DNA of 64,000 nucleotides from Coptis chinensis (taxonomy: Eukaryota > Streptophyta > Magnoliopsida > Ranunculales > Ranunculaceae), in contig CM027378.1 in the NCBI GenBank assembly GCA_015680905.1, positions 1,240,001-1,304,000 on the forward strand, given 5' to 3'. Shown piece after piece: positions 380-22,530 of the stretch. How positions within the stretch are numbered: position 1 is the stretch's first letter; the number at the start of each line of letters is the position of its first letter. The translations under genes and the position numbers were made by a program. The notes beneath the pieces are model-generated. The model saw only the letters and a program-made list of their open reading frames with translations. It did not search any database and was not told the origin of the DNA.

Positions 380-717
380 TTCATTCATACCCACAATAGG
401 TATGAACAATCAGCTATGAACATTGATTGTGGCTATAAAAACATGAACCCAAAACAGATATGAACAATAACTGTTCATACCCCAAATTATGAACATTAGC
501 TATGAACAATAGGTATGAACAAAATAGATATGAACAATAAACGTTCACACCCAAAATCAGATATATGAACATTGATTGTTTATACCTAAAACATATATGA
601 ACAATAAATGTTCATACCCAAAACAGACATGAACATTGATTGTTCATACCAAAAATACATATATGAACAATAAATATTCATACCCAAAATATATATAAAC
701 ATTGATTGTTCATTTTT
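380..717. repeat. Palindromic minisatellite array, cluster 1
   Basis: About ten degenerate copies of a short inverted repeat of the form TATGAACA-N4-TGTTCATA are packed into ~340 bases, separated by short A-rich linkers. One unit reads ATGAACATTGATTGTTCAT. Each unit can fold on itself. The minus-strand ORF here is repeat-encoded (ILGMNIY-type repeats) and is not a gene. Related clusters occur near 16.33-16.64, 20.24-20.50, 21.6 and 22.1-22.5 kb. The family is not known to me. Confidence 0.85.
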
Positions 718-1299
718 TGGGGTAGCGCCGCAGGCGCGTCGAGGTCTCGTGGGCCGTAGGCACGGGCATACCCTAGTGAGGAAACATGGGGGATCCCCTA
801 GGGATGTAAAAAATAACTTTTCTTTCATGTTGCGAGCAAATGTGTTCTATAATGGGGCAGCAAGCCCAAGCCCTGTGTCTGTTACGATATCAGGAACACC
901 ACAAAAACTGAGACATGATCAGATTCCATCAAGGAATAGAGGCTCACCGGTGAAACGGAATTGGAATGGGACTGGGATCCTGGCGACACCACCAAGACGA
1001 AGAACACACGTGGAACAGTCCAATCGACAACGAGAACGATGGCAGGTGAGGAGATAGTCGAGGTTTGGCGATTGAAACGAGAATGGATATTTTCAAAAGG
1101 ATGTGTCGGTGACCGTTGTTGGGTATGGGCAAGGGGCCCGATAATAAACAAGTCGGGGACATGGGCCAGACATTCAAGGCCCAACCCAAGAGGCACGAGA
1201 GGGACACATGGGCTCTACAAGTATGATAGGACCAAGCGAGGGGCCTTGGTGGTATGGAGCCCGAATATAGCAATCGAATCGGTCATGGATGTGGATGAG

Positions 1300-2775
1300 G
1301 TCATGGGTATAAAAAATGGTTCGATGGGAGACAAGATGGGTCTCCGGGTATGATCCGGCTTACGGAAGCAAGACATATAACCCAGACACGGAGTGTGTCT
1401 TGGGGAAAGTGGAAACAGGATACCTAGGCTTGGAGGATACTAGCTTGGGAAATGGAAAAGCTATAGGGAATGATTATACCTTGCCGAAAAATAGTTTTTC
1501 TTACCTTACCGAGGCAAATATCTCTCATCTTGATTATCAAAACTCAGATGGGACTAAGCGTGTTTTCAGCCAGTCTGGACCTGATAATCCTGGGTTTTGC
1601 TTCATTGGGCAACCAACACGAGGTAAAAGGGGTAGAGCTGTGGTGGCTCGAGGAGGAAAGCATAAAAGAGGTTTTTTCAGAGGTATTAGAAAAGAATCAA
1701 AAGAGGTTGGTGTGGGAAAGAAAAGGAAAAGAGTTTAGTGGTTCGAGAAACGACCAAAGAAAGAAAAAGGATGGGTGATAATGGATGGCGAAGGATCAGT
1801 TGGAGGCTGGCAGTACAGAAGTCCATGAGGGCAAAACTGGAAGCGGATGACCTCAGGGCTAGGGGTATGGGGAACTTGCTGATACCGGAGAATGCCCGAG
1901 TATACCCAATATCGAGTGGGTTTGTGGAGTCCAGTGTACCATCTGAAGGGTCGTTGGATTCTAGTGAGCCCTACGTGGATGAAGGAGGGATATCCCCACG
2001 AAGAAGGCATTCCCTCGGATGCTTTTACTGAGATGAAGAAGATGGGTATTCAACAAGTGAAGATGATGAAGTGGACCCATATAATGAAGAAGAGCAAGGT
2101 ATGGTGGTGTATAATGGGAGCCATCAAGAGGGAGGTCTCCAGCGGCAATGCCCTCTCGTGATTTGGTCTATGAGTCGGGAGGATAGTGTCACACAACCCG
2201 ACCTCGGCTTTTGATGATTCAACGGTGGGGGAATCTTCTCAACCCGACTTTTCGAAAGAGATGGAAAAGCAAGAAACCTAAGAAATCAAGGGGTGAGTGC
2301 AGTGGCTATGGTGGAAGTGCTAGAGTTAGAGGTAACAACAATGTGATTCAAACAACAGTGGGGGTCTGTGTAGTCCTCCCCCAGGGTTTGCGGCGGCTGT
2401 CCCCAAACAGCTGCCTCGACAGAAATGATAGAAGCCTGGAATTGCGGGGAATAGGTTCCTCCACGGCAATTCAAAATCTAAAGGATCTGGTGGTCTAGCT
2501 ATGTTTTGGAAAGGAGTGCAGCTGGAGGTCCTTGGAGCCACGGCACACATCGGTTCTGAGGGAAACGAAGAACTGGCTGCTTTTGGGGCTTTGGCTTGGG
2601 ATGGGGAAGGCAAGTTGGTGGAGGCAGCTACTCGTGATTTGAAATTTGCTAGTAGTAGTCTTGAGGAGGCTGAGTTGGTGGCAATGGAAGTGGCAGCAAT
2701 GCTAGCAAGGACCACAGGCAGAACCTCTTTCCTTTTTGAAGGAGACTGTAGGCAGGTTGTGCAGTCTGCTTGAGA
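1300..2775 (+). pseudogene. Internally deleted LINE remnant: ORF1 tail, endonuclease start, RNase H
   Basis: The 1316-1738 frame ends in a basic Lys/Arg-rich tail of the type seen in plant L1 ORF1 proteins. After several frame breaks a short GGLAMFWK-type stretch near 2490-2520 resembles the start of an L1 endonuclease. About 30 codons later the frame at 2501-2773 reads like a plant RVT_3 RNase H domain: AAFGALAWDGEGK, then EAELVAMEVA, then FEGDCRQVV. The rest of the endonuclease and the whole reverse transcriptase are missing. This is inferred from motif order, without alignment. No poly(A) or target duplication was identified. Confidence 0.55.
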
Positions 2776-2869
2776 ACTCCATGTAAATTAGAATACCTAA
2801 ACTGGAAATTAGACTCTATTGATTGTATGATTTTGGGCTTGTGTCGACCTTTCACCTTTTGTAATTTTA

Positions 2870-3700
2870 ATGCTCAAATGTTGAAGCTCATGATTTAGCT
2901 AGGTGGGCATCAAAGAACCTTGATGAGAGCCTGCTACGCTGAACATATGTTGAAATGTAGTACAATACCTTTGATGTATGAGTTATGGCATGTTTTCTAC
3001 CGAAACAAAAAAAAAAATGATCACATTGCACTTTTTAGCTTTTTACTTTTTAGGATACACAAAAAGGCTCACACAAAAAAATCACACAAAATGATCACAC
3101 ATACTTTTTGGTTTTTTTGACGACTGTGATCTGATAGCCCATGCAACATGGTGGTTTGGATAGTAGTCACTATGGTTAATTCTCTAATTCATGTCTCTCT
3201 CTCTCTCGCTCGGAATGAAACGATTAACATCATGTTAGTTTAGATGGCGAGATTACTATTCTTAATCGTCGGATAGGCTCGGTCATAAATGAACAATATT
3301 TTTTGTCCTCCTTGTTGTATGTGATGGTGATGGTGATGGTGATGGTGTTGGTGGTGATACATGGTGTTAAACTAATAAAACAAGGCTAAATCATGGTGTT
3401 AAACTATGGTATGCTATCAAATCTGGGCCAAAACAAAAACAAATAATGCAAATAAAATAGATGGGATAACAAACAAATATGAGTAAACAAATAATAAATG
3501 AGGATAATAAATATAGAAAAATATAAGCTAAATATAAGCACTTAAGTTGGGAATGCGCAGTTAAATCGGTACTCGGTCACTACTCGTTTGAAGAGTGACT
3601 AGGTGTAATTGGTCGGGGATTAATCGACATTAATCGGGCGATTTTTCAAAACACTATATTTCTTTAACATCATAATGAAGCCAATTAAGAACTCAATCAA
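2870..3700. other. Intergenic, simple repeats only
   Basis: It contains an A-run at ~3006, a short CT microsatellite at ~3194-3211 and a TGATGG-type microsatellite at ~3325-3355. The rest is AT-rich unique-looking DNA without supported coding. Confidence 0.6.
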
Positions 3701-3709
3701 TCAATAAAC

Positions 3710-4378
3710 TGTTGGTTTTTTCCCTCACATGAGGAGGAAAGGAAAGGATTTCATTATGCGTGGAAATGTTTGAGCGCTACCCGCGCTCAGATTGGCCTTG
3801 ACCAAGGCACGACCCGCGCCCATGCCGTGGAAGACTTCCAGTACTTTCAGCGCGACACGCGCTCAGTTTGTTCTTGCCCGAGGCGCGACCCGTGCCCAAG
3901 TCTATTTTCATAAGAAATTTGGGACTGCGAGTTTGCAATAAGAGTTAGAGTTTTTGGCAAAACCTAACACCAAGAAAACACAAAGTCGAGAAAAACAAAA
4001 AAGTCGAGAAAACCAATCTTGAAAGCTATCAAGATTGAGAAAGAACCTTTACAGAGAGACAACCCTGTAAAGAGATAAGAGTGATCTAGTAAGGTTAGAG
4101 ACTGAAAGGAGAGATTGTAATCTTCCTTTCCACTTTATAAAGAACTAGCTCTTGTGGAAGTAGGCACCATTGGCCGAACCACGGTATATCTTTGTGTTGT
4201 GGTTTGCTTTTCTTTTACATTATTATTATTTGTTGTTAATAGTTGTTTTTTAGCGAAATTTGGGCATGTTAGTATAGGTTGTAGTTGATATTTAGAATTT
4301 GTCTGGAGTTGAATTGTGTTCAAATACAAGTTATCTGTGTAGTGGGGGAATCGATTGGTATTGGTATAAACCCCAACA
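3710..4378 (+). mobile_element. LTR of an LTR retrotransposon (5' LTR)
   Basis: The segment starts TGTTGG and ends CCAACA, a perfect 6-bp terminal inverted match of TG...CA type. Two bases after its end lies TGGTATCAAAACAC, close to the tRNA-iMet primer site TGGTATCAGAGC. A TATA-like box (TTTATAAAG) lies at ~4133. Together these make it a 669-bp 5' LTR, most like a Copia element. No gag or pol follows, so the element is truncated. Two diverged ~50-bp GC-rich units (each with CGCGCTCAG and CACGACCCG-like words) repeat at 3769-3822 and 3849-3900. Confidence 0.75.
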
Positions 4379-4380
4379 AG

Positions 4381-4396
4381 TGGTATCAAAACACTC
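4381..4396 (+). other. Primer-binding site, tRNA-iMet type
   Basis: TGGTATCAAAACACTC sits 2 bases after the LTR end. It matches the start of the plant iMet primer site with A for G at position 9 and later drift. It sets the element's orientation as plus. Confidence 0.7.
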
Positions 4397-4480
4397 AATC
4401 AGCTAAAATAAATAAAGAGGACTGAAGTGTTGATTGATCGGCAAAATGTCGAGTTAGATGTTTAACAGGGGAATAGTCAA

Positions 4481-4674
4481 GTGAGCGGAGCGAACGATCT
4501 GGGCAGAAGGGGGGGTTATGCGGACAAAAATGAAATTGGTTGGTTTTTGTCTGTCTGTCCTCACCTATCCCTCTCTCTCTCTTCCTCTCCCTCTCCCTCT
4601 CAACCAAACCCTAACTCTCTCTCTCCCCCCCCATAAACCCATCTCTCCCTCTCTGTTCTCCACCCTCCGCTCAC
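4481..4674 (+). mobile_element. CT-rich TIR repeat, copy 1
   Basis: This 194-bp unit starts GTGAGCGGAGCGAACGATCT and ends CTCCGCTCAC, giving a 10-bp terminal inverted repeat. The interior contains a GGTTGGTTTTTGTCTGTCTGT-like block followed by a long CT tract. The segment at 21929-22120 is the same family inverted: same ends, same TGTCTGTCTGT block, same CT tract, 192 bp. Both have GGGGC next to the tract-side end. It is MITE-like; the superfamily is not assigned and no clear target duplication was seen. The ORFs here are low-complexity. Confidence 0.7.
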
Positions 4675-4704
4675 GCCCCAACTGCTTAGCAGTTATCTAG
4701 TTGA

Positions 4705-4905
4705 GTGAGCGGAGGCCGAAACGATCTTAGCGAAAGGAGGGTATCGCGGAAAAAACCAAATTGGTTGGTTTATGTGCAATGCAATGCATCCTCAACCTCT
4801 CTCTCATTTTTTCTTTCCCCCAATACCCTTTCTCTTCTTCTCCCCAATACCCTTTCTCCTTCCCCCCGACTCTCTCTCTCCCCAGCTCAGCTCCTCCCCC
4901 CATTG
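4705..4905 (+). mobile_element. CT-rich repeat, copy 2 (degenerate)
   Basis: It begins GTGAGCGGAGGCCGAAACGA, followed by an AACCAAATTGGTTGGTTTATG block and a CT-rich tract, in the same order as copy 1. The far inverted end is not clear. It lies 30 bases after copy 1 in the same orientation. Confidence 0.55.
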
Positions 4906-4969
4906 CCATGCGGTATACTAGTACAATTACTTTCGGCTAATTAGCACGTATTTAATCGGGAGTTGGAGA

Positions 4970-5225
4970 CTTAGTCCAAACGGTGTGGCCATATTGTTGG
5001 GGATTTTTCTAAGTCCAAATCCCAAACGACATGGCCACATCGTTTTGGACTAGTCTAGACGGTGTGGCCATGTCGTTTGGGATTTGAACTTTGAAAAAAT
5101 ATAAAGTTCTGATTTTTGGGCTCTTGACCGGTGTGGGTACATCGTTTGGACTAAGTCCCAAACGGTGTGTCCAAGTCGTTTGGGACTTAGTCCAAATGAC
5201 CTAGCCGGGTCGTTTAAATTTGGGG
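4970..5225. repeat. Alternating inverted repeat of GTGTGGCCAT...CGTTTGGG units
   Basis: At least five variants of a ~30-bp unit, for example GGTGTGGCCATGTCGTTTGG or its reverse complement, lie head-to-head and head-to-tail near 4978, 5020, 5055, 5127 and 5160, with a weaker one at 5195. The words AAACGGTGT and CGTTTGGGA recur at unit ends. The unit resembles sub-repeats seen in non-autonomous plant transposons. No coding. Confidence 0.65.
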
Positions 5226-5239
5226 TTTTCGAATTCAAC

Positions 5240-5498
5240 ATTTTGGGACCAATGGCACACTTGTCGTCAGTGGCCGAGGCGAACGATTTTAGCTATCTTG
5301 AGACAAAAACCAACTTGGTTTGGTTTACGTTTCCTCAATCTTCTCTCTTATTTTTTTTTCCCAAATACCTTTCTCCTTCACCCATCTCTTCTCTCTCCCA
5401 CCCCCCAACTCTCTCTCTCCTCCAACTTTTCCCCAACCCCACAGATATATAGGAATTGTTTTTTTTTTTTAATTTTTGGGACCAATGGCACACTTGTA
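5240..5498 (+). mobile_element. CT-rich repeat, copy 3, flanked by a ~24-bp direct repeat
   Basis: The unit GTGGCCGAGGCGAACGATTT... with an ACCAACTTGGTTTGG block and a CT tract runs 5270-5450. TTTTGGGACCAATGGCACAC stands just before it (~5241) and again just after it (~5475, preceded by a T run). This looks like an insertion with a long target duplication, which argues against a simple cut-and-paste element for this copy. Confidence 0.6.
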
Positions 5499-5502
5499 AT
5501 AA

Positions 5503-5790
5503 TTGTTTTTTTTTTGCAATGACCACAATATAAGTCCGTCGATGCCAGGACCGAATGCATTACAACCAGCGTTCTCAAACTCAAATTCCCCTCGCTTTCG
5601 ACTCAACTTTCCAAGAACTCCTCCCTCAACTACTCTCTCCCTAAACTATTCCAAGGTAACCCACAATTCTTTCTCGTTCTCCTCAATAATGATCCGCACA
5701 CCGGTTGAAGTGCATTTTGACAAAGACAACTACCTTATCTCCACACTTCACTCCTCTCTTTCTTCTTGTCTCACTAGATAAAAACTAGAT
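5503..5790 (+). CDS. Unrecognised short Ser/Pro-rich ORF
   Basis: The reading frame (92 codons) is rich in Ser, Asn, Phe and Pro, resembling a transit-peptide-like first exon. It lies between repeats with no identifiable domain and no clear continuation. It may be a captured first exon or chance. Confidence 0.2.
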
Positions 5791-5899
5791 CTCTTTGAAG
5801 AAGAGCCTACGGTTCCTCCTCCTCAATGGTTGAATACCCCGAGTTGAAACTCCCCAAGGTATATATGCAATTTTAAAGTGAAAGTTTTAGTTTTTAGAT

Positions 5900-6620
5900 T
5901 TTTTTGTGATTTGAGATGATGGAGTACAGATAATTTTGATTGTTAGCATTTACGGCGTGTCATTTGTCTAGGATCGATAATTAGTAATCCGTTGGTCATC
6001 AAATGTGAAAGGTAAAGAAAACTTGAATGGATTAATTTTCGAATGGATTAATTTTCCAATGGGCCGTTGGATGGTTTTTGCCATTAAATAAGCATATGAG
6101 TTTGTCGAATTACCCTACATCTCTACGCACCATAGATTTAGCCTAATTTTCCAACATATGGTTAAAACAAGCATGTTTTGAATTCATCGTGTTGCACAAA
6201 CACAATTAAAATTTGAGTCTCGTGATGGTTCATCTAATTGTGTAATTTACTACAAGTGACTAATTGTATAATTTACTACAAGGTTAATGAATGTTTTACG
6301 CTTTCTATAGATATATTTGAAGTTTCTTGGTGCACACTACTTTCTTCTGATTACTCTGTCCAACTTATAATTGAGTTCAATGAAATATATACAAATTTAT
6401 ACACTAAGTTGTTCTGAACAATGTTTAGGTCCCCTTAAAGTATTAACCTCATTGAGACTAGATAAACAAAACTAAGGGACCCTTAAGGCCTTAAATGATG
6501 TTTGATGTATTTTGTCTCCTTCTCCTTCAAAAGGTTCTTGCGGCCATTCTTTGAGTCTCGTGATGGTTCATCTTCTTTGTATAATACCTTAGTTAGTATT
6601 TTAGATTCTCATCGCTCACC
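5900..6620. other. Intergenic, no supported feature
   Basis: AT-rich DNA with short local repeats (GAATGGATTAATTTTC twice near 6030; CTAATTGTRTAATTTACTACAAG twice near 6240-6280). No coding signal. Confidence 0.55.
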
Positions 6621-6628
6621 TGTCATGT

Positions 6629-6818
6629 GGAATGTAGTATGTACCTGACCTTGAAATAATTGGTGATCCTAATAAATGAGTGAAGTTCTTGGTACTATCT
6701 TGATGCGAAAGAGACAAGCGATTAATGCGTGGTAGGAGGAGCCATGTTACATACCAAGAACTTCACTCATTTATTAGGATCACCAATTATTATTCAAGGT
6801 CAGGTACATACTACATTC
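6629..6818. repeat. Hairpin: 66-bp inverted repeat with 57-bp loop
   Basis: The left arm (6629-6694, GGAATGTAGTATGTACCTGA...) and right arm (6752-6818) are reverse complements with only a few changes around an A/T run. The loop contains GAGACAAGCGATTAATGCGT... (6711-6752), repeated almost identically just outside the hairpin at 6834-6872. The high arm identity suggests a recent origin and a transcript that would fold into double-stranded RNA. Confidence 0.85.
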
Positions 6819-6957
6819 CTATTGATCGTTCATGAGACAAGCGATTAATGCGTGGTAGGAGCCATGTTACATGCCGGTTTGTAGTCGATGGATACAATAT
6901 GTGTGTGTGCTTGAACAGACAAAAAGCTGTTAAATTTTGTAATCTCTATTGATGTAG

Positions 6958-8645
6958 GTGCTTGTTAAATCTCCATGGATAGAGTGCCAATAAATAGATC
7001 ACATTTGTATATGCGGGGATGACCACATTTCTTCCTTACTCTTGGCTGGAGAGGTAACTATCCTCAAATAATTAATCTTATTATTAGTTTTTTAGTATTT
7101 TCAGATTGTTAATTTATTTTAGAATCAGTAACTCTTCTAATTGACTAACAACCTAGACCAATTGTGCGCACACACGACCACAATTTGAAACTAAAGCTAT
7201 GGGAGCTGTCGAAGACCCAAGAGGAGATGATCGAAGATATGGGCTTCAAGCAGCTGAGGAACATTGGGCATTTTCAAGCAGATAAACACCTTGTATCTGC
7301 TTTAGTAGATCGTTGGAGGCGGAGACCAATTCTTTTCATTTTCCTGCTTTCGAGATGACCATTACGCTTGAAGATGTAGCGTATATACTGGGCTTAAATG
7401 TGTTTGGGAAAGCGGTGGTCGGAAATCAAATTATGCGCAAGTCGAGCATGTAAAAATATTTGGGTGCACAACCTCCAAAGACAATGATCATGAGGGAAGA
7501 GTGTTAAACTATGTTGGTTGACACAGACATTTTCCACAGTTCAAGCTGGTTTAAATGTTGACGAAAGACAACGCACAATAGCGTATGTGCTCTTCCTAAT
7601 TGGAAGCACAGTTTTTTCAGAGCCCGGAGGCCATAATGTACAAACTAAGTACCTACCTCTCCTTGCAAATACGCTCAAGTGTGGTCAGTATGCTTGGGGC
7701 AGTGCTGTTCTTGCATTCCTATTCAACGCACTTTGGAGGGCGTCACTTTGTGAAACCAAACATGCATGGTCGAAGAAGTAATTGCATTGTTTCAAATCTG
7801 TGTGGCTCTTCTACTCTGTTGTCGGTAGGTATTTTTGGTTCCAAACTTAATCGTTTTAATTATTAACTGTGTATTGATGAATTGTTGTTCCCTAATGAAA
7901 ATTTGGTTGTAGTCGTGGTTTTACGAGAGGTTTAGCAAATGGCAACCGAGGCGTCAACCAGCGATTGTATTCCCTGCTGCTTGCCGATGGAACAACTCCT
8001 TAAACCGACCTTGCAAGCACACATACGGATTTTTGAGTGAGGAGTTGGACAAACTTTGGGAAGATCAGGTTAGTTGTGTGTTTGATTCTCAATTCAACTT
8101 TTTAGTGGTCATGTGAAAAAGTAGTTAATAATACCAGTCATATTATATATATCTAACATGAAGCCATCCTTTATGATTATGAGTCGGGTATTCTTGAATT
8201 TGAAATAAATGTATACGTTAAATATAAACTAACGTGTATTTCATTAGGTAATTTGGCTGCCGTGGGATTCATGGGGGGATGCTCCTAAGTTAGCCCTGGA
8301 TTCTTCTTGTATTCAACCCTTGTCTACATGGTTGATCCACTTTGACATCCTCGAGAGGTTTATGCCTGAGATGTTTTGAGGCGATATGGGTTACAACAAC
8401 ACATACCGCCTAGCCCACTTAGATGGAACCGGAAAGCAAAAGGAGCTGATATGACGGCCGCATGCACAGAGTGGGATCAGTGGCGGTTGTGGGACTGTGT
8501 CGAGGCGGAAGTAAGATTTTCTGCGGCAACACAGGCAGCGTATCTTGAATGGTATGAGATTCATAGTGTCACTCACATCAGACCATTGTCTAGTCGCGAG
8601 TCATTGCTAAAGGATAGACTAAACGAACAGGTGATACTTTTATAA
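6958..8645 (+). pseudogene. Plant mobile domain (PMD) gene, exons decayed
   Basis: Exon 1 (ATG at 6975, donor GAG|GTAACT near 7052) carries SHLYM then DDHIS-like residues in shifted frames. The exon from ~7150 reads GFKQLRNIGHFQADKHLVSALVDRWR, then in another frame ETNSFHFP...ITLEDVAYILGLNVFG, the PMD core. The 7518-7781 frame continues with RTIAYVLFLIGSTVFSEPGG and YLPLLAN. Later exons give WFYERF (7915 on) and RRYGLQQHIP (from ~8376), the PMD C-terminal signature. A relative on the opposite strand at 17.5-19.3 kb aligns exon by exon. Frameshifts and stops at several points make it a pseudogene. PMD occurs in MAIN-like proteins and in transposon genes; the Ulp1 part downstream favours the latter. 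Confidence 0.75.
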
Positions 8646-8649
8646 ATCT

Positions 8650-9024
8650 GCGAGTTTGTTTGCTTCCGGTACTTCTTTACTAATTTATTCAATAACTAAT
8701 TGGTTATGCAAAATCGGCGCTTAATAGTACTTAATGTTGTGGTCAGTGCAAAATATCCATAGCATGTTCTGCTGTGTTCAAATTTGTAGAAGTAGTACAT
8801 GTTGTGGAAATATATGCCTTTGTGAGCAATAGTAAATAATCTCTTAAAACCTCTGCACTTTGTGTTCATCGTCAAATTGAATGCCTCATGATTTATTCAT
8901 TTGCCTTATTGCCCGCAGATCTATTGATTTTGTATTGATTGAATGCCATGATTTCTTTTACACGACCTCTGATTAATCAAACTTGATCATTCATGACTTA
9001 AGGGTTTAAGTCGTTGAGGGGTCA

Positions 9025-9063
<39 letters not shown>

Positions 9064-9410
9064 TATTATTTTTTTTTTTTATTTTTTTTTTTTATTTTTT
9101 TTTTAATTTTTATTTATGGTATTAACTTGATCATGCATACACATTATGGGCAATGGGCCTAGGCAGTAGGCCATATAATATGGCATAAATCAGGTTATAT
9201 ATGTAGTAATTGTGAATGCATAATGCCATGCTTTTGTGATTTTATAAAAAAAATTGGATTTTGTATCTTTATAAAGCTTGAACTTTGGCACTTTTATAGT
9301 TAACCTTAACTACTTATGTGAGTTTTTCTTGTCCTATGGTTTATACCTTGCATATGTGTCAAGTCCCAATATCTTTGTAACTAACACTACTTATGCTTTC
9401 TAATAGAGTA
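8650..9410. other. Probable intron or spacer with TA microsatellite
   Basis: AT-rich, with a (TA)n run at ~9029-9060 followed by a T-rich tract to ~9110. It lies between PMD exons and the acidic linker exons. No coding seen. Confidence 0.5.
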
Positions 9411-10262
9411 ATCGTTGTTTTCGCCTAGCGAGAATGCTTGAACCTGTTTTTCAGCAAATCCCTGGTGTCATTATCCCTCAAGAGTTGAGAGACTTGCACA
9501 ATGAAATATTAAGAGATGCGGCAGAAGGCGTGACGGTTGAAGAAAGTGGTTTGCAAACGGACCATCTGGAAGTGGATCCTTATGCGGCACCCACTTATTC
9601 CTCCCCAACTAGTGGTAGTGACACTGATGGATAGGCTGAAACCAACCGTCACCCAAAAACTTCCATGCGGTCACCACTTGAGCATGTCCATCTTCCTCAA
9701 GGTAAATGCAGTTGTGCATTAAACATGTTCTGTCCATTTCTAATGCATCTGATATTTTTGTGTAGATAGCAATAATAAAAACAAATCGATTGCAAGAGAA
9801 GCAGTTCAGGGGGATAGTGGAATGGGTTTGTTGAGTGAGCATGGTGCTAGAAGGTCATATAGTGGTAGAGACTCAGAAGAAGACACTGATGAAGCTGGAA
9901 ATGGTCAGTATCACTTTTCAGTTGTCAATACTTGTGTATATAACATGTTTGTCTATAACAATCCCTTTTCTTATATAGATGTTCCATTGAAGAAAGGAAC
10001 TACAAAAACCCAAAGTAGAGGTGATCCAGGAAAGATTGCCACCGTCGAGGGAAATGAAAGGCTCGGTGAGCAAAGTTTGGCTGCTTGTACTAAAGGTAAG
10101 TTTTTTTTTTTTACCTAATTCTTACTTTGTCAGTTGCATATTGTTTACTCTTTTTTTGTTGTATGCGTCACGGATGCAGTGTCGGGTTTGGTCACGGTAT
10201 ATAGGGAGTCATACGATGAGGTCGATCGTCTGAAATTGTTTCAAGGAGTGATTGTCATATAG
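9410..10262 (+). pseudogene. Linker exons between PMD and Ulp1 parts
   Basis: Short open segments are bounded by plausible splice signals. 9416-9634 contains SGSDTDG just before a stop, matching SGSDTDGEAE in the minus-strand relative at ~17.15 kb. 9764-9901 is Ser/Arg/acidic, 9979-10094 is Lys/Gly-rich, and 10176-10262 follows an acceptor GATGCAG. The shared SGSDTDG words tie this block to the PMD gene. Exon ends are inferred. Confidence 0.45.
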
Positions 10263-10680
10263 ATAGTCTTATCATATATATAGATAATGTCTTAAAAGAT
10301 TGTTTTGGCGACACAATTTTGTTTCGACTCCTGACTCCTGAGGTTTTATTTCTTGCAGTTTTGCAATGTATATACTTGGGAAAACTGTCATACTCTTGTT
10401 TGTTATTGTTGGTTGTGTGTGCTGACTTCAAGTTGAACCCATATTGCTCAAGTCGAAATTCTTAAACCATGTTGAGTCATGTGGGGTTAGGATAGCTGTT
10501 ATGAATTATGACCATGTTGAGGCTTACACAATTCTTTGGCATGGCGATCCAACTCATTGAGCGAATGGCGAACTATTTACTTTGAATGCAGTAAGAATGT
10601 AGTTAGTTAAATTTCTTATAAGTCTCACTCATAAGGAATTGTGTCATTGTGATTTTTTTTGTACGTCGTTTCATGGCTTA
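10263..10680. other. Probable intron, no feature seen
   Basis: Unstructured AT-rich DNA between linker exons and the basic exons of the Ulp1 part. Confidence 0.4.
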
Positions 10681-13440: not shown

Positions 13441-13457
13441 TGAAACTTTAGCTTCAT

Positions 13458-14733
13458 CCATGGTGGCTTGGTCATGCAAGATAGAAGGAAACTTGAATGG
13501 TGATAGTCTTTATATATATATATTCTTTGTGTTTAGTTTGGCTTTTAGGTGGGATATTCTTATATCCTTTTATATTCTTATATCCTTTATATTATATGTA
13601 TGCAGCGTGTATTAACTTGCATTTCAAATCAAGCGTGTGTATGTACATACACATGTCATATATTCTGAGTATCTTAGAGAATTTATTAGAAATCTTGAGT
13701 TTCTTCGATATTAGAAAATCTTGAGTATCCGCAGTATCTTAGAAATCGTCATAGTATCCGCGAGTATCGTCATAGTATCAGAAATTTATTAGAAAATCGT
13801 CATAGTATGACAAAGTATCTTCTACTAAAAATTCTCATAAATTCTCGAGAAGATATCGAGAAAGAAGCTTTCTAGTCAAGGATATTTTACTTTCGGGATG
13901 ACTATATTCTTCAAAGTTACCCGTCCCCCAAATTGCATGTCAATACCGAAATTTCGATGGAATTAGCATGATGTCATCTGTAAGTTCTTACTTAATGTCA
14001 TGACTATAATTTCCCAAGTTATGGAATGGTGCTTTCAGGTCTTGGTGGTAAACTATTTCTTGTCGACCAACTCTTGTAGGTGAACCTTATTTAGTTCGTT
14101 ACCTTCTCTTCAAATGTAATCCTTTGGGCAATTTCGGTGGCAAACCAATTTCCGGGATCTTTATCAATACTCGGAAATTTCTTAAACAAGTGGAAATTAT
14201 AAAGAGCTCAAGATTGGGTCATCCAAATTTCAAGTCTCATCGGGTTGAAGTGAATAAAATTGGTGCGCGCCACTTTCGAAATTGCTGAATGGATTACATT
14301 TGAAGAGAAGGTAATTGAGCGAAATAAGGTTCACCTACATGAGTTGGTCAACAAGAATTAAGAACCACCAAGACTTGAAAGCACCGTTGCATAACTTGAG
14401 AAATAATAGTCGATGACATTAAGTATGAACTTATAGATGACATAATGCTAATTCCATCGGGTTTGCATTTCGGTATCGATAGGCAATTTGGGGAACGGGT
14501 AACTTCCTCGAGAATATAACCATCATCGAGTAAAATATCCTTTACAAGATAGTTTTTTTTTTCTGGTTTCTTCCTAGTATCTTCTGAATTTCTGAGTAGA
14601 TAATGTGTGATAGATAATGTACACATGTTCGATTTGAAATGCAAGTTAATACACTGCGTCGTGTATAATTCATGGTGGTTTGGTCAAGCAAGCTAGAAGG
14701 AATGGATGGTGATTGTCATCTTAGCTTTATATG
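13458..14733. mobile_element. Large foldback structure flanked by ~55-bp direct repeats
   Basis: The left arm (13602-~14152) and right arm (~14262-14658) are inverted repeats over ~370 bp. Matching words include TGTATTAACTTGCATTTCAAA at the outer tips, GATATTTTAC, CTAATTCCATCG and CTCTTCAAATGTAATCC at the inner ends. The left arm has an extra ~150-bp block of CGTCATAGTATC-like repeats. The spacer is only ~110 bp. Outside the arms CATGGTGGCTTGGTCATGCA (13460) and its near-copy (14671) form a direct repeat. Arm identity is moderate, so it is older than the 6.6-kb hairpin. The minus-strand ORF at 14348-14644 lies in the arm and looks accidental. Confidence 0.75.
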
Positions 14734-14739
14734 GATCAT

Positions 14740-15690
14740 ACTGTTATTGTTAGAGATGTTTAAGAACTAGTTCATTTCATCGCATACAGATAAAGTTAGG
14801 ATACTAATAATATTTTCCATGTAACGGGGGTGGGTATGGCGTATTTATTTGTGTGTAGGATTATTATCGCGAAAAATTGCCAATTGTAAAGAGCTCAATA
14901 AGAGTAGCTTCACTCCACAGAAAATGTTGAAACATCGTGCAAAGATGGCTATGAAGATTTTGAAATGTAATGAATCATTGTGGTGTTAAAATGAGTCTTT
15001 GATAGACATGATACTAAGATTTGGTGGAAGTATGGGTTCATGTAAGCTAAGAAGATTAAAGTGAATTATATGGTGTTGATGTGATGATAGTGGTGGCTGG
15101 GAGGGTGTTATCCTAATTGACTAGGTCTGATGTATTAGGCGGGGCTTGTAATCCCATGTGCGTGGTTAAACTAAAGCTGTCTGGATGATGGCTTGAATCC
15201 CTCAATGGATGTATGCAATCAAGGCTTCTTTTCATTTCATGTCTGATGCATGAGTCTCTGTTGGGTTTGGTTTTTTGGTAAATGGTGGTACAATTGATGT
15301 AGGGAGGATTGATTGCAGCGGTTTAGCATTAAGTTAACATAAAAGTCATATACATGATGATTGATTGATTATAGGTTTTCATGGATTTTCATGGCTTAGA
15401 ACATGCGGAGATGTCTCAATAGTAACAGAATTGAATTTCAATTGGGACATATAGTTGCCATGGAATCTATTTGATTATGCATTGATTAAACATCTTTCTT
15501 TAGTTTCCAAGTCTTGAAGAAGCTTACAATCTTCTGGATTTGCATCGGCTACTTCAAACTCAGATTGTAACTTTGTCACCTGATTATTTACATTGCCAAA
15601 ATACTTGATGAAGAGAAACACTCATCTGTTTATGAAGAGAAACACTACGCCAATGTAACATTGCTTTGGCGTAAAACTCCACAAATGTCA
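14740..15690. other. Intergenic, no supported feature
   Basis: Mixed-composition DNA. A doubled word (GAAGAGAAACACT) occurs near 15610-15645. No coding frame worth calling until the terminal exon at 15.69 kb. Confidence 0.45.
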
Positions 15691-15692
15691 GC

Positions 15693-15960
15693 CTTCCAGA
15701 CGCTTCATCGATCTTGTAATCCTGGCAACTTTAGGAGTGGAATTTGACTCTTCAACACCAAGCTTCTGCTTATTCTCCTTCTTTTGTTTGCCAACGTCAA
15801 CTACATCTCTTTGTAGTTGCTGCACCAAGGGTCCTTCTTGCTGAAAATCTGATGCCCCTTACCTTTGTCGTTGCACTTTTGCTTGTGTTTCCTTGACAAT
15901 TGTGGAATTAGGCAATGGAGTTTGGATGCCTCGAGAACATCGATATATGTGAAAAACAAT
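15693..15960 (-). pseudogene. Probable last exon of the minus-strand PMD gene
   Basis: Read on the minus strand the segment gives QQEGPLVQQLQRDVVDVGKQ then ARITRSMKRLEG and a stop. It is a Gln/Lys-rich tail with a basic end, plausible as a nuclear protein terminus. One stop lies upstream in the same stretch. The link to the PMD gene rests on strand, position and style, not on a seen splice. Confidence 0.35.
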
Positions 15961-16324
15961 AAAATACAATTAAGAACACTATATTGTCTTTAGATATATT
16001 GTCAAAATATATCGGATGTTCTCTAATATACGAAATAACAAATTGAACTATTTAAGTAAAGAACAAATTCACGATCAACCCGAATCTCAAGCGGCCGAAA
16101 TATAGATATAGGGAAGGGATCGGTTTACTCACTTTTCGTTACTCTAAATAGGCGTGTCGGATCAATTAATCTAATGGCTAGTTTTTTGCTTAGGTGGACA
16201 GCCATGTACTTTGTTCAAAGGAATATGACTTTGAGCTTGAGTCGAGAACTCAAGAGCCGAAACTAGTAATGAGTTAAGGACAATCATGGGTCCCATTTCT
16301 TCTCTCTCCTTCCTTTCCTTTGTT

Positions 16325-16640
16325 GTTCATACTTTCAGTGTTCATAGTCCACTAGGAGTTTGAGCACTGAATGTTCATACTATTGTTGGACTATGAACAT
16401 TCAGTGTTCATACTCTTAGTGTACTATAAACATTGAATGTTCATACTCTTGTTGGACTATGAACAATCAGTGTTCATACTCCTAGTTGACTAAGAACATA
16501 GAATGTTCATACTCTTGTTGGACTATGAACAATCAGTGTTCATACACTATGAACACTGAATGTTCATACTCTAGTGGACTATGAACAATCGGTGTTCATA
16601 CTCTATGGACTATGAACACTGAATGTTCATACTCTTAGTC
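16325..16640. repeat. Palindromic minisatellite array, cluster 2
   Basis: About eight units of the form GGACTATGAACA-N-TGTTCATACTCT, ~35 bp apart, with alternating cores (CATTCAG, CAATCAG, CACTGAA). The unit is a longer version of cluster 1. It lies in the probable intron immediately 3' of the MuDR-N-like exon of the minus-strand PMD gene. Confidence 0.85.
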
Positions 16641-16689
16641 TTTCAGTCCTTCTCAGTTTCACCCACTGAACTTAGGAAAATCATGTGAC

Positions 16690-17284
16690 AATGACAAGTG
16701 AAGATGGAAAAGGAATACTCACCATCTTGGCTGGTTGGTTGAATTCTTGGTAGCACCGTCTCTGTCAGATCTTGCACAAAGTCCACATAAATATGAACGA
16801 GCCCATCTTCGTGAGGAGCCGAATTGGCAAAGAACTCTATCACCGCGTCGTCAGTCTCTAGTGTAATTTTCATGCCCCTAACCAGCCAACAAATAGTAAC
16901 ATTTTCATCAGAGGGACATTTAATAACTTCTCGTATCCAATTAAACAACTTCACTCTTGTCATTTCATTAAGCTGCATCTCTGGAGAATCAACAACTTGA
17001 CCACCATTGTACACCCACACTTTCATCCCTCTCATCTTTTTACCAACCCAAATCCCTCCATAATGGGCCCTAATGGATTTGCTATCAAGATGAGTGGCGA
17101 AAGTGCCACCAGTTAGAGCATCATCATCACTGTCATCTTCAGCCTCTCCATCCGTGTCACTGCCACTATCGGAGCTTGTATAAGTTGATACCAATCCAGG
17201 ATTAGTTGTAGTCAGGTCACATTGCTCGCTACTCGTACGTGGGTTTTGCTGTATTGAGGAATATTTTAATATCTCCGCAAGCAT
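16690..17284 (-). pseudogene. Exon with acidic linker and MuDR N-terminal (PB1-like) domain
   Basis: Open for 213 codons. The N-terminal part is Ser/Asp-rich (SDSGSDTDGEAEDDSDDD). The C-terminal ~110 residues read HYGGIWVG, VWVYNGGQVVD, then KLFNWIREV, LETDDAVIEF and VHIYVDFVQD. That is the pattern of the MuDR N-terminal/PB1-like region of plant MULE proteins (GG-W..., Y-GG-VD, ...DD...). SGSDTDG is shared with the plus-strand PMD gene linker. The exon is the best preserved of this gene and probably splices to the PMD exons at higher coordinates. Confidence 0.55.
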
Positions 17285-17560
17285 CGAACGAACCTTATTG
17301 TGGAGAGGGATTTCTTGATCCGCGAGTATTTAGCAGTATTGTTTCAACCAACTTTGCAAACTGAACAGAGCACTCCCTCTGCAAGAAAGACGAAACTTAC
17401 AATAACCTATTAATGATTACATCAATTATAGAACTAACCATAAGTAAACAAAAATAACGAGACTATTGTAATGACACGTCCATCATAGATTGACAACAAT
17501 AGGGCATGGGTAGGTCACCACCGGACTATTTATTTGAACACCAATTTTAAATTTTTTTTC
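17285..17560. other. Probable intron of the minus-strand PMD gene
   Basis: A short segment with degenerate sequence similar to the plus-gene exon around 9410-9500; otherwise non-coding. Confidence 0.35.
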
Positions 17561-17570
17561 AAGTCATTCG

Positions 17571-19285
17571 TCACATCATAGTAGAAGTTGGGGTATAAAG
17601 CAAACTAATAGATTCACAAAAAATCACCTCTCGATGCCATCTATCCATGAACAACAACTCGCCAAAAGCCAGTGGTGTAACTCGAGTCAAACAGTGATCC
17701 AGGTACCAATCCAGATACACTTCACTCGTATCCTGAGGGTAGTCTACTACGTGTTCACAATGACCCATCCACCAATCATTCCACTCCTAACACATCTTTC
17801 CATGAATTCGATTTTGCTTCCACGGTCCCATCTATCCGGGGGGCTGGTATATGTTGTTGAAACCCAAATTGCCTCATACAACGATCGGGCATATACTTCA
17901 CTACATAATCGAAGTGGATCAGCCATGTAGGTGTCGGGACCAAGAGTGAAGACAAAAGGCAAAATCGGGAGTATTGCAGCCACTTATCCCATGGCTGCGC
18001 GGACAACCTAAGAAACAAATTAATATTAGTAACGGTATGCGGACATAATGTGTTTTATAAATTGTTGATGCGATAAGGCGCTAACCTGATCCTCGAAGGT
18101 GTGTTCAACTCATCTCGATAACTTGATCACGATTGCTTTTCGTGAGGTCGATCCACGATATATTTCCATCGCAAGCGCGCAGGGAATACAACTTTTGGTT
18201 CACAAGTCAATGGATACAAAGCGGAACCTCTCATAAAACCAAGTCTACAGTCAAAAATTTTAAAAGTTACATCAATTCCACAATATACAATTAAGGCTAA
18301 ATCTAAAGGCCCATACATCTTGCGTACCATACGGCAAGCATGCGGAAGACATGCTCTACAATTAATCCAAAAAAGTTCAACTATACCCAACAATACGTAC
18401 CAACAACAATGTAGAAGAACCATACAAGTTGAGTCGAAAATTTGATTTTGTTCCTCTCTTGCACTCATTTGGTGTACAGCGGATTGATGCTCCCTTTAGG
18501 GCCTTAAATAAATCGCCAAAGAGCAAACACTAGCCCAAGCATACATGGCACAAGACTCAATATTGTTCAGAAATTGTAGGTACTTGGTATGGACCGCGGT
18601 TGCCCCCCTCCTTCAGAAAAATATGGTGCTTCCAATGAGGTACAGGACATATGCAATTGTGGCCCTTGTCTGATGTTCAGATCCAACATTGGAAAAGGTA
18701 TCTGTCAACCATCGGTTATCAACGCTTTTCCCTCTTACTTTGTCTTTAGGGGGTGAAACGCCCAAAAATTTTGAGCAAGCCTTTTCTGCACTCCAGTCCA
18801 AGTTGTCAACAAGGGCATTCCCAAAAATGTTCAAGCCTAATATATGACCTACATCCTGAAGAGTAATTGTAAGTTCAAACGATGGGAAGTGGAAAGAATT
18901 GGTTTCAGGTCTCCATCGGTCAATCAGAGCAGATATCAACTCTCTGTCCCCTTGGAAATGTTGAATTTTTCTAAGGTATTGAAACCCCATTTTTGAAACC
19001 ATCTTCGTTTGGTTTCCAGATAACTTCCACTGATGTAAATTTTTAGTGTGCTCATGGGTATGAACCACTGGATGATCCTGTTTATCATTTACACGAGTTA
19101 TTGGTTGTGAATCGATATGTGCAATAAAATTAAAGCAGAGTAGAAATCGAAATAAATTACCACTCCCTCCACAAGTAACGACGATATATGGTCATCTTGC
19201 ATATACAAGTGACTGCTGGTCCCCCTCGATATGACCGTTCCCATTTCATGCAGACCACTTCTTTTGGTTCTAGTAGAAGCGCTGC
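17571..19285 (-). pseudogene. Plant mobile domain gene, minus-strand copy
   Basis: Reading right to left: exon 1 (~19285-19161) gives HLYMQDDHISSLL. The exon from 19068 gives MGFQYLRKIQHFQGDRELIS, ALIDRWRPETNSFHFPSF, ITLQDVGHILGLNIFG and RATIAYVLYLIGSTIF. A later exon gives VVFPARLRWKYIVDRPH (~18200), then TWLIHFDYVVKYMPDR and MRQFGFQQHIP (~17840-17900), then SEVYLDWYLDH (~17700). These are the PMD hallmarks, and the exon order equals that of the plus-strand gene at 7.0-8.6 kb. Frames change at several places, so it is a pseudogene or needs sequence correction. No Ulp1 part is visible; a MuDR-N-like exon follows instead. Confidence 0.75.
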
Positions 19286-19289
19286 AACG

Positions 19290-19990
19290 TAATCATTTAG
19301 ATGTCAGCTATAACCAAGTGAGGATCATCTCCCATCACTAGAACGTTTACAATAATTTTGTGATGCATAATTGTATTTGTAGGTGTTTACTGTTTATATT
19401 AAAACATAGTTTAAACTGTGCAACCACCTCAAATAAATAATAATTAAAAGATTGAGTATACTCCAATAAAACTATCTTAAAATGAATGATCAGTTTGGAT
19501 GCTTATATGTAACACAAAAAAACACATTAACAGGGGCAAACAAAAATAAGAGGAAAAATAATCAACCAAATAAGTTAATAAGTTAATGCCCTCGTATGTT
19601 AATAAAAACAATGCAACAAAAGAAAAAAATAAAATAAAAAAAGAGTTCGAATGGTGCGGTGATATCTCCAAATCCCTAATTCCAAGTATATATGTTTAGA
19701 AACAAGAAGAGTGAAAAATAATTAAGAGACTAAAGAGAATACTTGTTACCTTTTGAAAGCCGGTAGAGTTTGGAGAAGAGTTTAAAGATAAATGAGAGAC
19801 CGAAAGTGAAATAATCACTCCCAAACCCAAGCTTATTTCATAATCACTCTCAAGGACAGGGGCGGGGAAAGTTCAAGTTTTCCCTTGAATACGTGTACAC
19901 AATCAAACACCCCCCCCACAAAAAAAAAACCCCACAAACTCCCATAAAAAAACTCGACAAACCCCGAAAACCTAAGCAAAATCTTAAATT
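19290..19990. other. AT-rich spacer between divergent genes
   Basis: Between the start of the minus PMD gene and the plus DUF1985-like gene, with A-rich tracts at 19.5-19.65 and 19.91-20.0 kb. It could hold divergent promoters, but no motif is convincing. Confidence 0.4.
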
Positions 19991-20009
19991 TCCATCAAAA
20001 CAAAACAAA

Positions 20010-20190
20010 ATGTCAAAATCACCGTTGAGAACTGAAGAGAACACATGCAACACTGAAAATTGCACAATAGGTCTTCAAAATCAAATTTATTGTGAAGAAC
20101 ACCAAGATAAATTAGACCAACAAATTGTGTTATTTTCACAACTTGGACGGGGAAGAAGGCAAACTACCATTATGGGTACATTTCAATGAT
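20010..20190 (+). CDS. Possible first exon with Cys/His cluster
   Basis: An ATG at 20010 opens 60 codons. The residues CNTENCTIGLQNQIYCEEH give C-x4-C-x9-C-x2-H, suggestive of a small zinc site. It ends in TTTCAATGA or could splice near ATTATGG|GTAC. It precedes the Lys-rich exon at 20.58 kb by one apparent intron that carries palindromic repeats. The assignment to that gene is inference. Confidence 0.35.
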
Positions 20191-20239
20191 GTTGAATTAT
20201 ATTTTTCATGTTATAATTATTGAAATTCGTGATTTTTTT

Positions 20240-20505
20240 GCTAGAAAAAGATATGAACATTATTTGTTCATATCACTATTTGGATTTTCATGGTAACTTG
20301 CACAGTTTACATGTTAGGATATGAATGTTAGGAAATATATGTATGAACATTCATTGTTTATACTCTTGTTGGACTATGAGCATTCAGTGTTCATACTCTT
20401 AGTGGACTATGAACATTGAATGATCATACTCTTGATGGACTATGAACATTCAGTGTTCATACCATTGAACTATAAACAGTGAATGTTCATACCTAACCAT
20501 ACATC
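20240..20505. repeat. Palindromic minisatellite array, cluster 3
   Basis: Six or so units of TATGAACA-N-TGTTCATA with the TGGACTATGAACATTCAGTG linker style of cluster 2. It sits in the apparent first intron of the DUF1985-like gene. Confidence 0.8.
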
Positions 20506-20577
20506 AACAGACTAATGTTTGTAGGGTACTTTGCTATTTTTTAATTTCGATATCTGATGTTCATTTATTTGTAGGAA

Positions 20578-21490
20578 TTACTCCAAGGGATGAAAAGCAA
20601 ATCAAAGAGGAAGAACAAATCAAAGAAAAATAAGTCCCCAGGGAAAAGAGCATGTTCGAAATCTGCAACTAAGTAACAGAAGCCAGAATCGAGTAGCACT
20701 CCTACCAAGAAAAGGAAGAAAGAGTCAAGAAGCAAAGTAGTTCCTAAAAAGAAGAGTAGGAAAACAGTTTCTAAAAAGAAGGCAGAAGAGGAGAGTGAAA
20801 AGGAGAATGAAGAGGAGGAGAAGGAAGATCAGGGAAAGGAACTAGTATCGACCAAGGCACAGGCACCTCAGCTGCGAAGCAGCCTCTCCTGTATGATAAA
20901 ACTAGTAAAACTTCTAAAGGAAAAGAAAATTCCAGAAAATTATGTTGAGGCAATGAAGAAGACACCATTCTGGTTGTTGTTTAAAGCATTGTGGGAAGGG
21001 GAGATTGTAGAAGGTAACGTAAACAAGCCCAACAAAGAAATATTTAATCTCTTGGACAAATATGATTTCAACTCTAATGAATTTCAGATAGATGGAAAAA
21101 GTTTAAAGCTGACTTATGAGGAGATAAGTCTAATGTTTGGGCTGCCTGTAACAGAAATGTTTTTTAATCCAACGGAGACTATTGGTTCTAAAGATAAACA
21201 AACAAGATTCATATCAAAGTACTTGGGTGGTGGGGAGAAATCAATAATCAACAAGGCTGATATAAGGGGTGCAATATTGCAGACCTTGAATGAGACAAAT
21301 GATGAACATGCAGCTGAAGATTTCTCAAGGCTGATGTCGCTTTACATGTTCACCACTTGCTTCTTTGCTAACGCTAATTCCAGAGTAACTTGGCCCTTAA
21401 TCAAGGCTGTAGAAGACTTGGAATCATTGAGAAAGTTGTCTTGGCCCAATGCCATACCACGGCCAAATTGATTGATTTCGCAGCTAAAAA
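20578..21490 (+). pseudogene. DUF1985-like exon with Lys-rich nuclear N-terminus
   Basis: After an acceptor (TTTGTAG|GAATT) the frame is Lys/Ser-rich with repeated KKRKK-type basic clusters, then Glu-rich, with one in-frame TAA near 20675. From 20893 it is open for 192 codons: FQIDGKSLKLTYEEISLMFG, LPVTEMFF, then DFSRLMSLYMFTTCFFANA and DLESLRKLSWP. The order (IDGK..LT.EE..LMFGLP, a serially conserved D-x-R-L helix, then L..LSWP) resembles DUF1985/PMD-like regions of plant Ulp1-family transposon proteins. I cannot confirm the family by search. The early stop suggests a pseudogene or a later start. Confidence 0.5.
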
Positions 21491-21699
21491 GCACAAAAGG
21501 CGAAGATAAAGACGATCGATGGATGCACAATAATGTTTATGGTATAGTATTTCAACTGCATCTCCTTAATATATATGTTTGTATGTGTGTATAACAATTG
21601 GTGGAGTATGAATAATGATTGTTCATATATGAAATCTTTGTAAATGCCTGTTTGTATAACATTTTTAGCACTAAATATGGGTTTCATCACACACATTGC

Positions 21700-21845
21700 A
21701 GTTTTGGATATGTGAGCACACCACACTCATTAAAAAGGTGGAAAATCATGAAAGAAAATTCCCAAGGTGTGCGAGATGGAATCTGAAGAAATTGATTGGA
21801 CAATTTCGAAGCACAGCACTTAACATGTTAAAAGATGATCAGGTA
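21700..21845 (+). pseudogene. Continuation exon of the DUF1985-like gene
   Basis: The segment reads LQFWICEHTTLIKKVENHE, then KFPRCARWNLKKLIGQF, following an apparent acceptor (CACATTGCAG|TTTTGG). L-x-W...EH followed by P-R-x-x-x-W is the usual continuation of this family after the core. It ends at GATCAG|GTAGATTT, a donor-like site that is repeated at 22.30 kb. Confidence 0.5.
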
Positions 21846-21928
21846 GATTTCAACCTATATGAAGTGTATAAATACACACTATAGTATTAGTGTATAACTA
21901 GAATAACTGCATATATAGTAGTAGGGGC

Positions 21929-22120
21929 GTGAGCGTAGCAAGGGAGGAGATAAGAGGAGGGAGATGAAGAGATGAGAGGAGGAAGATGAAGGAGGGAGGA
22001 GATGAAGGGCGGAGAAGAGAGAAAGACTATTAGAGAGGGGGGGTACGGTACAGACAGACACCAACAAAGTGGATTTTAGGGGGGCTTTTGAAACTGACCT
22101 CAAGAGTTCGCTATGCTCAC
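21929..22120 (-). mobile_element. CT-rich TIR repeat, copy 4 (inverted)
   Basis: Ends are GTGAGCGTAGCA and TTCGCTATGCTCAC (12-13 bp imperfect TIR). The interior is GA-rich and, in reverse complement, matches copy 1 at 4481-4674 in the same order, including TTGTTGGTGTCTGTCTGTAC. It is inserted inside one copy of the tandem duplication but absent from the other, so it arrived after the duplication or was lost from one unit. Confidence 0.75.
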
Positions 22121-22389
22121 GGATGAACACTGAATGTTAATAGTCCAATAAGAGTATGAACATTGATTGTTCATGGTCCAAATTTCAAACACTAATTGTT
22201 GATGCTGAATTTTATCAGGTAATTGTTGATGCCGAAGCTATAACAGATGAGGAAAGAGCATTGCTGCAAAACATATCCAGTGACGTTGTACCCTCTGATC
22301 AGGTAGATTTCAACCTATATGAAGTGTATAAATACACACCATAATATTAGTGTATAAATATACTATAGTATTAGTATTATTAATATCCA

Positions 22390-22530
22390 ATAGTAGTTAT
22401 GAACAAATATTGTTCATACCACTAAACTGGCTATGAACAATCATTGTTCATACCCCCAAATAGGAATGAACACTGAATGTTCATAGTTCAATAAGAGTAT
22501 GACCATTGATTGTTCATGGTCCAAATTTCA
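22390..22530. repeat. Palindromic minisatellite, cluster 4
   Basis: Four TATGAACA/TGTTCATA units, one of which supplies the codons MTIDCSW at the start of the following open frame. The matching unit at 22155-22180 supplies MNIDCSW in the first duplicate. A single unit also lies at ~21605. Confidence 0.75.

Follow-up and report, generated by a model that had tools for sequence, protein, structure and literature searches.

We describe a palindromic minisatellite in a 64,000-nucleotide stretch of the Coptis chinensis genome (assembly GCA_015680905.1, contig CM027378.1, positions 1,240,001 to 1,304,000 of the forward strand; hereafter the window), which an initial annotation, made from the letters alone, had noted as clusters of a short inverted repeat. 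Transposable elements carry this minisatellite as an internal module, whose length varies as whole units are gained and lost. In the window, the arrays between 16.3 and 22.5 kb are part of a multicopy transposable element that carries a plant mobile domain (PMD) gene on the minus strand and an Ulp1-type gene on the plus strand (the PMD/Ulp1 element). Elsewhere in the genome, arrays form the middle of a non-autonomous MULE-like element with 9-bp target duplications, here called TE-A, which is more numerous than the PMD/Ulp1 element. The palindrome is common to all of these contexts, while the linkers between its units are almost unrelated from one context to another.

The unit of the repeat is TATGAACA-N5-TGTTCATA, which recurs with a 33-bp step and a 66-bp higher-order period. 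The step is made of a 19-bp core and a linker, which in the PMD/Ulp1 element is mostly 14 nt long. The inverted core of the initial annotation is real, with one correction: the centre of every exact core is 5 nt long and mostly of the form nTSAn (S = C or G), so that the 21-mer comes close to a single dyad, and one extra base per side gives the near 21-bp dyad TATGAACA-n-TSA-n-TGTTCATA. A core with a 1-nt centre, a possible reading of the annotation's title, was also tried and rejected, its one match being at chance level. Units are mostly flanked by TA and, as had been expected of them, form hairpins, all six units tried folding as DNA at -2.4 to -5.8 kcal/mol. Exact matches to ATGAACA-N5-TGTTCAT number 15 in the window and 0 in 30 dinucleotide shuffles, and all 15 lie inside the clusters originally named. 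When up to three mismatches are allowed there are 40 matches (8.5 expected; maximum of 100 shuffles, 16), 30 of them in the clusters and the remaining 10 at the level of chance. The clusters are thus confirmed at 0.37-0.72, 16.32-16.64, 20.25-20.49, 21.61, and 22.12-22.52 kb. Together with the genes around them, they are laid out as follows (arrays and units carry no strand):

365 to 721, array B, with linkers of the ACCCAAAACATAT type: 7 units (up to 2 mismatches) and half-units
16324 to 16636, 9-unit array at the 3' part of the PMD gene; same site in L025-L027
16643 to 19191, minus strand, PMD gene of several exons (PF10536, E 1.2e-27 and 2.7e-8)
19805 to 19888, plus strand, stretch related to the TE-A left flank, between the two divergent genes (nhmmer E 1.3e-10)
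20010 to 23035, plus strand, 5' part of the Ulp1-type gene, with a basic exon, a putative DUF1985-like region, and a coiled coil (by eye)
20253 to 20271, solo unit preceding the intron array; present in L025 and L026, not in L027
20343 to 20490, 5-unit array within what looks by eye like intron 1 of the Ulp1-type gene
21608 to 21626, single unit with 1 mismatch; also in L025, L026, and L027
22123 to 22174, 2 units with reversed linkers, inside the first copy of a 179-nt duplication
22399 to 22517, 4 units, 2 of them inside the second copy of the 179-nt duplication

Across the 116 contigs of the genome (935.6 Mb) there are 21,884 exact cores, compared with 10 matches to the reversed pattern, whose composition is identical. 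Of nine 10-kb stretches taken at arbitrary round coordinates on contigs C1 to C6, none contained an exact core, and a single core was seen when up to two mismatches were allowed; this near-absence indicates that the repeat is clustered. The statement that the repeat is confined to the first 23 kb holds within the window and fails beyond it, given the genome-wide count and two further arrays in the 10 kb preceding the window (L015). A 28-mer of the window's linker subtype occurs 535 times in the genome (reversed control, 0). Six repeat sequences of 19-28 nt gave no match in the literature searched, and word searches of that literature returned no description recognised as this repeat. Membership in a known RNA family was considered and rejected, since Rfam returned only sub-threshold hairpin matches, the best in the arrays scoring 48 bits where 130 are required.

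The assignment of the 16.3-22.5 kb arrays to a transposable element rests on its other copies in the genome. The best 40 of 162 candidates for a segment of the Ulp1-type gene (20,560-21,560) were all nearly full length and 91-97% alike, and so were 36 of the best 40 of 118 candidates for the PMD 3' region (16,640-17,640; 89-96%), the window's own copies excepted in both cases. At least 17 of the 40 copies of the Ulp1 region, that of the window among them, have the start of a PMD copy 2.6-5.2 kb upstream, on the other strand. Three other copies of the element (L025, L026, and L027) carry, at matching sites, the 21.6 kb unit and the arrays of 16.3, 20.34-20.49, and 22.1-22.5 kb; the proposal that the repeat is a sub-repeat of gene-carrying transposons is supported for these clusters. 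Array length varies among copies. Over 21 copies each, with the window included, the 16.3 kb array has 0-11 units and the 20.25-20.49 kb region, solo unit counted, 3-8 units, and the 22.1-22.5 kb region has 2 (L025), 11 (L026), and 10 (L027) units compared with 6 in the window. Of the 20 stretches L030-L049, 18 keep one unit or more of the 16.3 kb array, and of L050-L069, also 20 stretches, 14 have the 20.25 kb solo unit in exact form. The usual left flank of the 16.3 kb array is missing in L045 (0 units) and also in L039 (1 unit) and L042 (2 units). The only array-free copy with both flanks, L047, has 22 nt between them; this copy may have lost its array or never have gained one.

The 28-mer was found within 10 kb and on the same strand in 8 of 11 Ulp1-region copies on C1 and C2 (one of them the window's), a count that excludes two more C2 copies beyond the reach of the 28-mer list, and at 0.55% of random positions. 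The link to PMD genes proposed in the initial annotation consequently stands for the window's linker subtype; it fails genome-wide because the arrays first listed on C1 sit in TE-A. The ends and the target duplication of the PMD/Ulp1 element were not found, and in the window its Ulp1-type gene is interrupted by a Gypsy-like region beyond ~23.1 kb. Ulp1 exons were found only in the L026/L028 copy, two in order, with the Ulp1 catalytic domain as best match (PF02902, E 0.006 and 0.022, below the cut-off). In the region C4:64590000-64617999 (L029, L026, L028), parts of the L026 element are found again, in unchanged orientation, both 11.9 kb downstream of it and 17 kb upstream; these are incomplete neighbouring copies. 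Two of these three stretches contain an F-box-associated-like fragment, named by eye, and Pfam gave no match for L028:1772-2104. At C5:73458475, a MULE transposase candidate lies ~3 kb from a PMD/Ulp1 copy (by eye, among the best 150 scored of 4,347 MULE candidates genome-wide).

TE-A was defined on C1 from the first 100 listed cores, which extend up to 2.59 Mb and are all covered by ten 10-kb stretches (L005-L014). These stretches contain 12 arrays in 11 elements of one family. In each element, an array of 2-30 units (counted with up to 3 mismatches) lies between a left flank of ~212 nt and a right flank of at most ~275 nt; L014 represents one element with its array split by ~1.9 kb. With flank models built from these same 11 elements, the left flank was recovered in 11 of 11 and the right flank at least partly in 10 of 11, and BLAST agrees. 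Note that the elements are not all independent, since L010 is a near-identical duplicate of L009, and the outer flanks of L012 are also those of L013. Leaving aside three elements without a complete right end, a 9-bp target duplication (shifts of a few nt allowed) was perfect in 3 and matched at 8 of 9 positions in 4 of the 8 elements tested, of which L012 and L013 are non-independent. The eighth, L005, gave no duplication by script, its right end being cut short, and shows a 9-bp repeat by eye. In a control with wrongly paired flanks, 8 matching bases were seen in 2 of 56 pairs. The flanks carry a GTAACTCTCAAGGACA-like motif, direct on the left and inverted on the right. When the left flank is compared with the reverse complement of the right, ~80-130 nt match in several elements (best E ~1e-7), and the outermost bases hardly pair.

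At a first look, the genome contains 1,542 left-flank and 1,334 right-flank candidates of TE-A, the best 40 of each having been scored. The distance from flank to flank is 183-814 nt in the 7 elements with both flanks among the matches listed. The left flank stands flush with a unit at 308 exact junctions (reversed control, 3), and an empty junction, searched genome-wide in one exact form, was found 0 times. Among 13 left-flank copies in the fully listed range, 8 have an exact flush unit; L007, whose array begins with an inexact unit, belongs to the other five. At C2:76297282-76299941, three right flanks stand in series at steps of ~1.2 kb and are probably tandem copies of TE-A. In the window, a pattern search for the ends of TE-A found none, one chance-level match and the internal stretch at 19.8 kb aside.

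Array B represents a third context with its own linkers. It is present in the window and in L015, the two being 93-94% identical. The L015 copy (7423-8152) is in two pieces ~0.7 kb apart and that of the window is continuous. A GC-rich hairpin ending in CTAG-T lies beside the array at window positions 720-780 and, with 85% similarity, at L015 7001-7039, on the opposite side of array B; it resembles the 3' end of a Helitron.

Comparison of linkers sets the three contexts apart. Overall, linker identity between contexts is 0.57-0.61 (shuffled, 0.48-0.54), for example 0.569 for TE-A and PMD (shuffled, 0.480) and 0.581 for array B and PMD (shuffled, 0.530). The two arrays of the PMD/Ulp1 element share linkers at 0.768 (shuffled, 0.557), and the arrays of TE-A compared among themselves yield 0.567 (shuffled, 0.465). 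The corresponding likeness of the arms is biased upward, since units were selected by their arms; the genome-wide count of cores with its reversed control is free of that bias. One stretch connects two of the contexts. The TE-A left-flank model matches the window at 19805-19888, between the divergent PMD and Ulp1-type genes, and also the L026 copy (E 3.6e-8), and an array follows downstream in the same orientation as in TE-A. Common descent of this stretch and the TE-A left flank is likely, a reading confined to this part of the elements.

The window holds a number of other features. Fragments of a second PMD gene occupy 7149-9634 on the plus strand (PF10536 E 4.5e-15 at 7494-7781), and at 7.5 kb this gene also gives a weak DUF1985 match (E 0.0068) that ranks under the PMD match. 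A perfect 40-bp inverted repeat with a 57-nt loop is found at 6655-6791, its Rfam hairpin match being sub-threshold. The ~1-kb element at 13607-14654 is composed of imperfect inverted arms (five arm pairs, 84-94%) and has a match at the corresponding site of L027 but none in L025 and L026. A 55-bp tandem repeat that includes a ATGCAAATGCAT-like palindrome forms two blocks in opposite orientation, at 35254-38083 and 47032-49213; the blocks are ~9 kb apart, 72-74% alike over 750-900 bp, and look like a foldback element with long inverted ends made of repeat arrays. Open reading frames at 23559-28292 (minus strand) resemble a Gypsy polyprotein, and those at 49917-61508 (plus strand) a LINE, both by eye.

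A possible role for the arrays is suggested by the VANC proteins of Arabidopsis VANDAL elements. These DUF1985 proteins bind short motifs and remove silencing (PMC5735166, PMC10398659). The introns of VANC21 and VANB21 and the region upstream of VANA21 contain tandem repeats of the VANC motif, which vary between copies, and VANC6 acts also on AT9TSD1, an unrelated element that bears the motif (PMC5735166). By analogy, and tentatively, the arrays described here may work like motif arrays of the VANC type, which does not assign them to the VANDAL family. The spread of the minisatellite by transposable elements, and the change of its length as units come and go, are observed facts. On the proposed reading, the 21-bp dyad would in addition be the DNA target of a protein that the element family encodes; the likeliest candidates are the transposase and an anti-silencing factor like VANC. 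Through dense non-coding arrays of its sites, this protein could recognise its own and dependent elements and either keep them unsilenced or mobilise them. A shared protein target would account for the same dyad being kept in several elements whose linkers otherwise differ. It is possible, though less likely than not, that the PMD/Ulp1 family and TE-A form a VANC-like control network around the one dyad, used as a common address by an anti-silencing or mobilising protein that the elements encode. The small elements would then depend on the address of the large one, and how strongly a copy responds would follow from the length of its array.

Several observations weigh against such a target site. 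An alignment of the 20.3 kb region in 19 copies (of 21, four with rearranged arrays were dropped and two 10-kb copies added) gave nucleotide diversity (pi) of 0.060 for arms, 0.052 for centres, 0.065 for linkers, and 0.086 for intron flanks, and the minor variant was present in at least two copies at a small share of the sites (arms, 7 of 84; linkers, 7 of 53; intron flanks, 34 of 163). Arms are thus barely less variable than linkers or flanks, and present constraint is weak at best. Double stem changes numbered 6 among 354 units where 4.5 were expected, 5 of the 6 keeping the pairing; compensatory stem change was rejected as a line of support, these doubles being too few to argue for selection on pairing. 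Linkers within TE-A are as unlike one another as linkers of different contexts, and may therefore simply change fast. No transposase was tied to the PMD/Ulp1 element or to TE-A, with which the MULE candidates were not compared. VANC21 motifs are short and have one orientation, unlike the dyad found here (PMC5735166). Finally, the 'DUF1985-like' label of the window's Ulp1-type gene received no confirmation from Pfam, which gave no DUF1985 match at E up to 10, though HMMER filters drop most weak matches. Genome-wide, DUF1985 has 149 matches from the best 150 of 476 candidates. In favour of a target site, 4 of the 40 Ulp1-region copies have such a match 5-14 kb downstream on the same strand (random placement: mean 0.2, 0 of 5000 draws reaching 4), in a gene that may or may not be part of the element.

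The chief rival of a VANC-like mechanism, ranked below it and nearly as likely, is that the minisatellite is a passenger without function, grown from a hairpin-prone seed in an ancestral transposon, expanded by slippage and unequal exchange, and copied by transposition. The change of length by whole units, the 66-bp higher-order repeats, the variability of arms among orthologous copies, nearly that of linkers, and the double stem changes without clear excess speak for it. However, one dyad with almost unrelated linkers in three contexts is hard to obtain by neutral drift unless exchange between elements is frequent, and an array-free TE-A was not seen (0 of the one empty form searched, 308 occupied junctions).

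Two further explanations appear improbable. The arrays, intronic and in part with inverted linkers, could be modelled as sources of long hairpin or double-stranded RNA that feed small RNAs acting for or against the element. The first linker of the 16.3 kb array is inverted, so that the array opens with a 49-nt inverted repeat (86%), and its minus-strand RNA is predicted to fold at -145 kcal/mol (z = -15.7), but such folding is expected of palindromic repeats anyway, and the Rfam microRNA matches in the arrays were all under gathering scores and depend mainly on hairpin shape. Even less probable is the idea, raised in the initial annotation, that the palindrome is itself a mobile unit that inserts singly and is then amplified. 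Single units do stand in unrelated surroundings (20,253 and 21,608), units are mostly TA-bordered, and the palindrome occurs in several contexts. Yet the 21.6 kb unit is at the same site in three of three other element copies and the 20.25 kb unit in two of three, and the analysis revealed no pair of filled and empty sites around a target duplication. The single empty form of the TE-A junction that was searched has 0 exact occurrences, against 308 occupied ones and 3 in the reversed control, and the sole array-free copy with both flanks, L047, not firmly placed in the tree, has a 22-nt stretch at the site. The mobile unit is thus not upheld.

Minisatellites and other tandem repeats within transposons are already known (PMC4079207, PMC10342631), and two such systems invite comparison. 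The Short Interrupted Repeat Cassettes (SIRC) of Arabidopsis consist, like the arrays here, of short repeats, some palindromic, with diverse spacers, and their copies reside in MITEs, MuDR elements, and Helitrons (PMC10342631). They comprise 2-8 repeats with many unrelated repeat sequences (PMC10342631), whereas one repeat sequence dominates here, and in contrast to SIRC spacers the linkers fall, in the PMD/Ulp1 element and in array B, into families whose length hardly varies. The foldback transposons Tetris and Galileo of Drosophila also have internal tandem repeats, which can seed satellites and in Galileo contain extra transposase-binding sites; however, their units are of ~220 bp and lie in terminal inverted repeats, while ours are 33-bp palindromic units in mid-element or intronic position (PMC4079207).

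Sequence-specific anti-silencing encoded by transposons has been described for Arabidopsis VANDAL elements (PMC5735166, PMC10398659). If the dyad is indeed a target of this kind, a second motif system would be available, comprising ~22,000 natural sites, element copies of 0-11 units, and a non-autonomous family with the same motif, and the effect of motif number on methylation and mobility could be tested as a dose response within a single genome. What would be new is a single palindromic address that an abundant small element has in common with one that carries genes. Should the arrays be no more than passengers, they exemplify transposons that seed thousands of palindromic units, some of them intronic. 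The comparison with VANC and VANDAL itself has two sides. In both systems a dense short motif lies in non-coding parts or introns of transposon genes (PMC5735166, PMC10398659), units are gained and lost between copies, the motif is found also in an unrelated element, terminal inverted repeats, putative here, are degenerate, and a DUF1985 gene is at hand (here nearby only). The motifs differ (YAGTATTAY for VANC, a 21-bp dyad here), the element here carries PMD and Ulp1-type genes, and, unlike in VANDAL, the array here forms the centre of a non-autonomous element with more than 1,000 candidate copies. It is this agreement in where and how densely the motif lies, in how its copy number varies, and in its occurrence in a second element, taken together with the differences, that leads us to compare the way the arrays may work with that of a VANC motif array.

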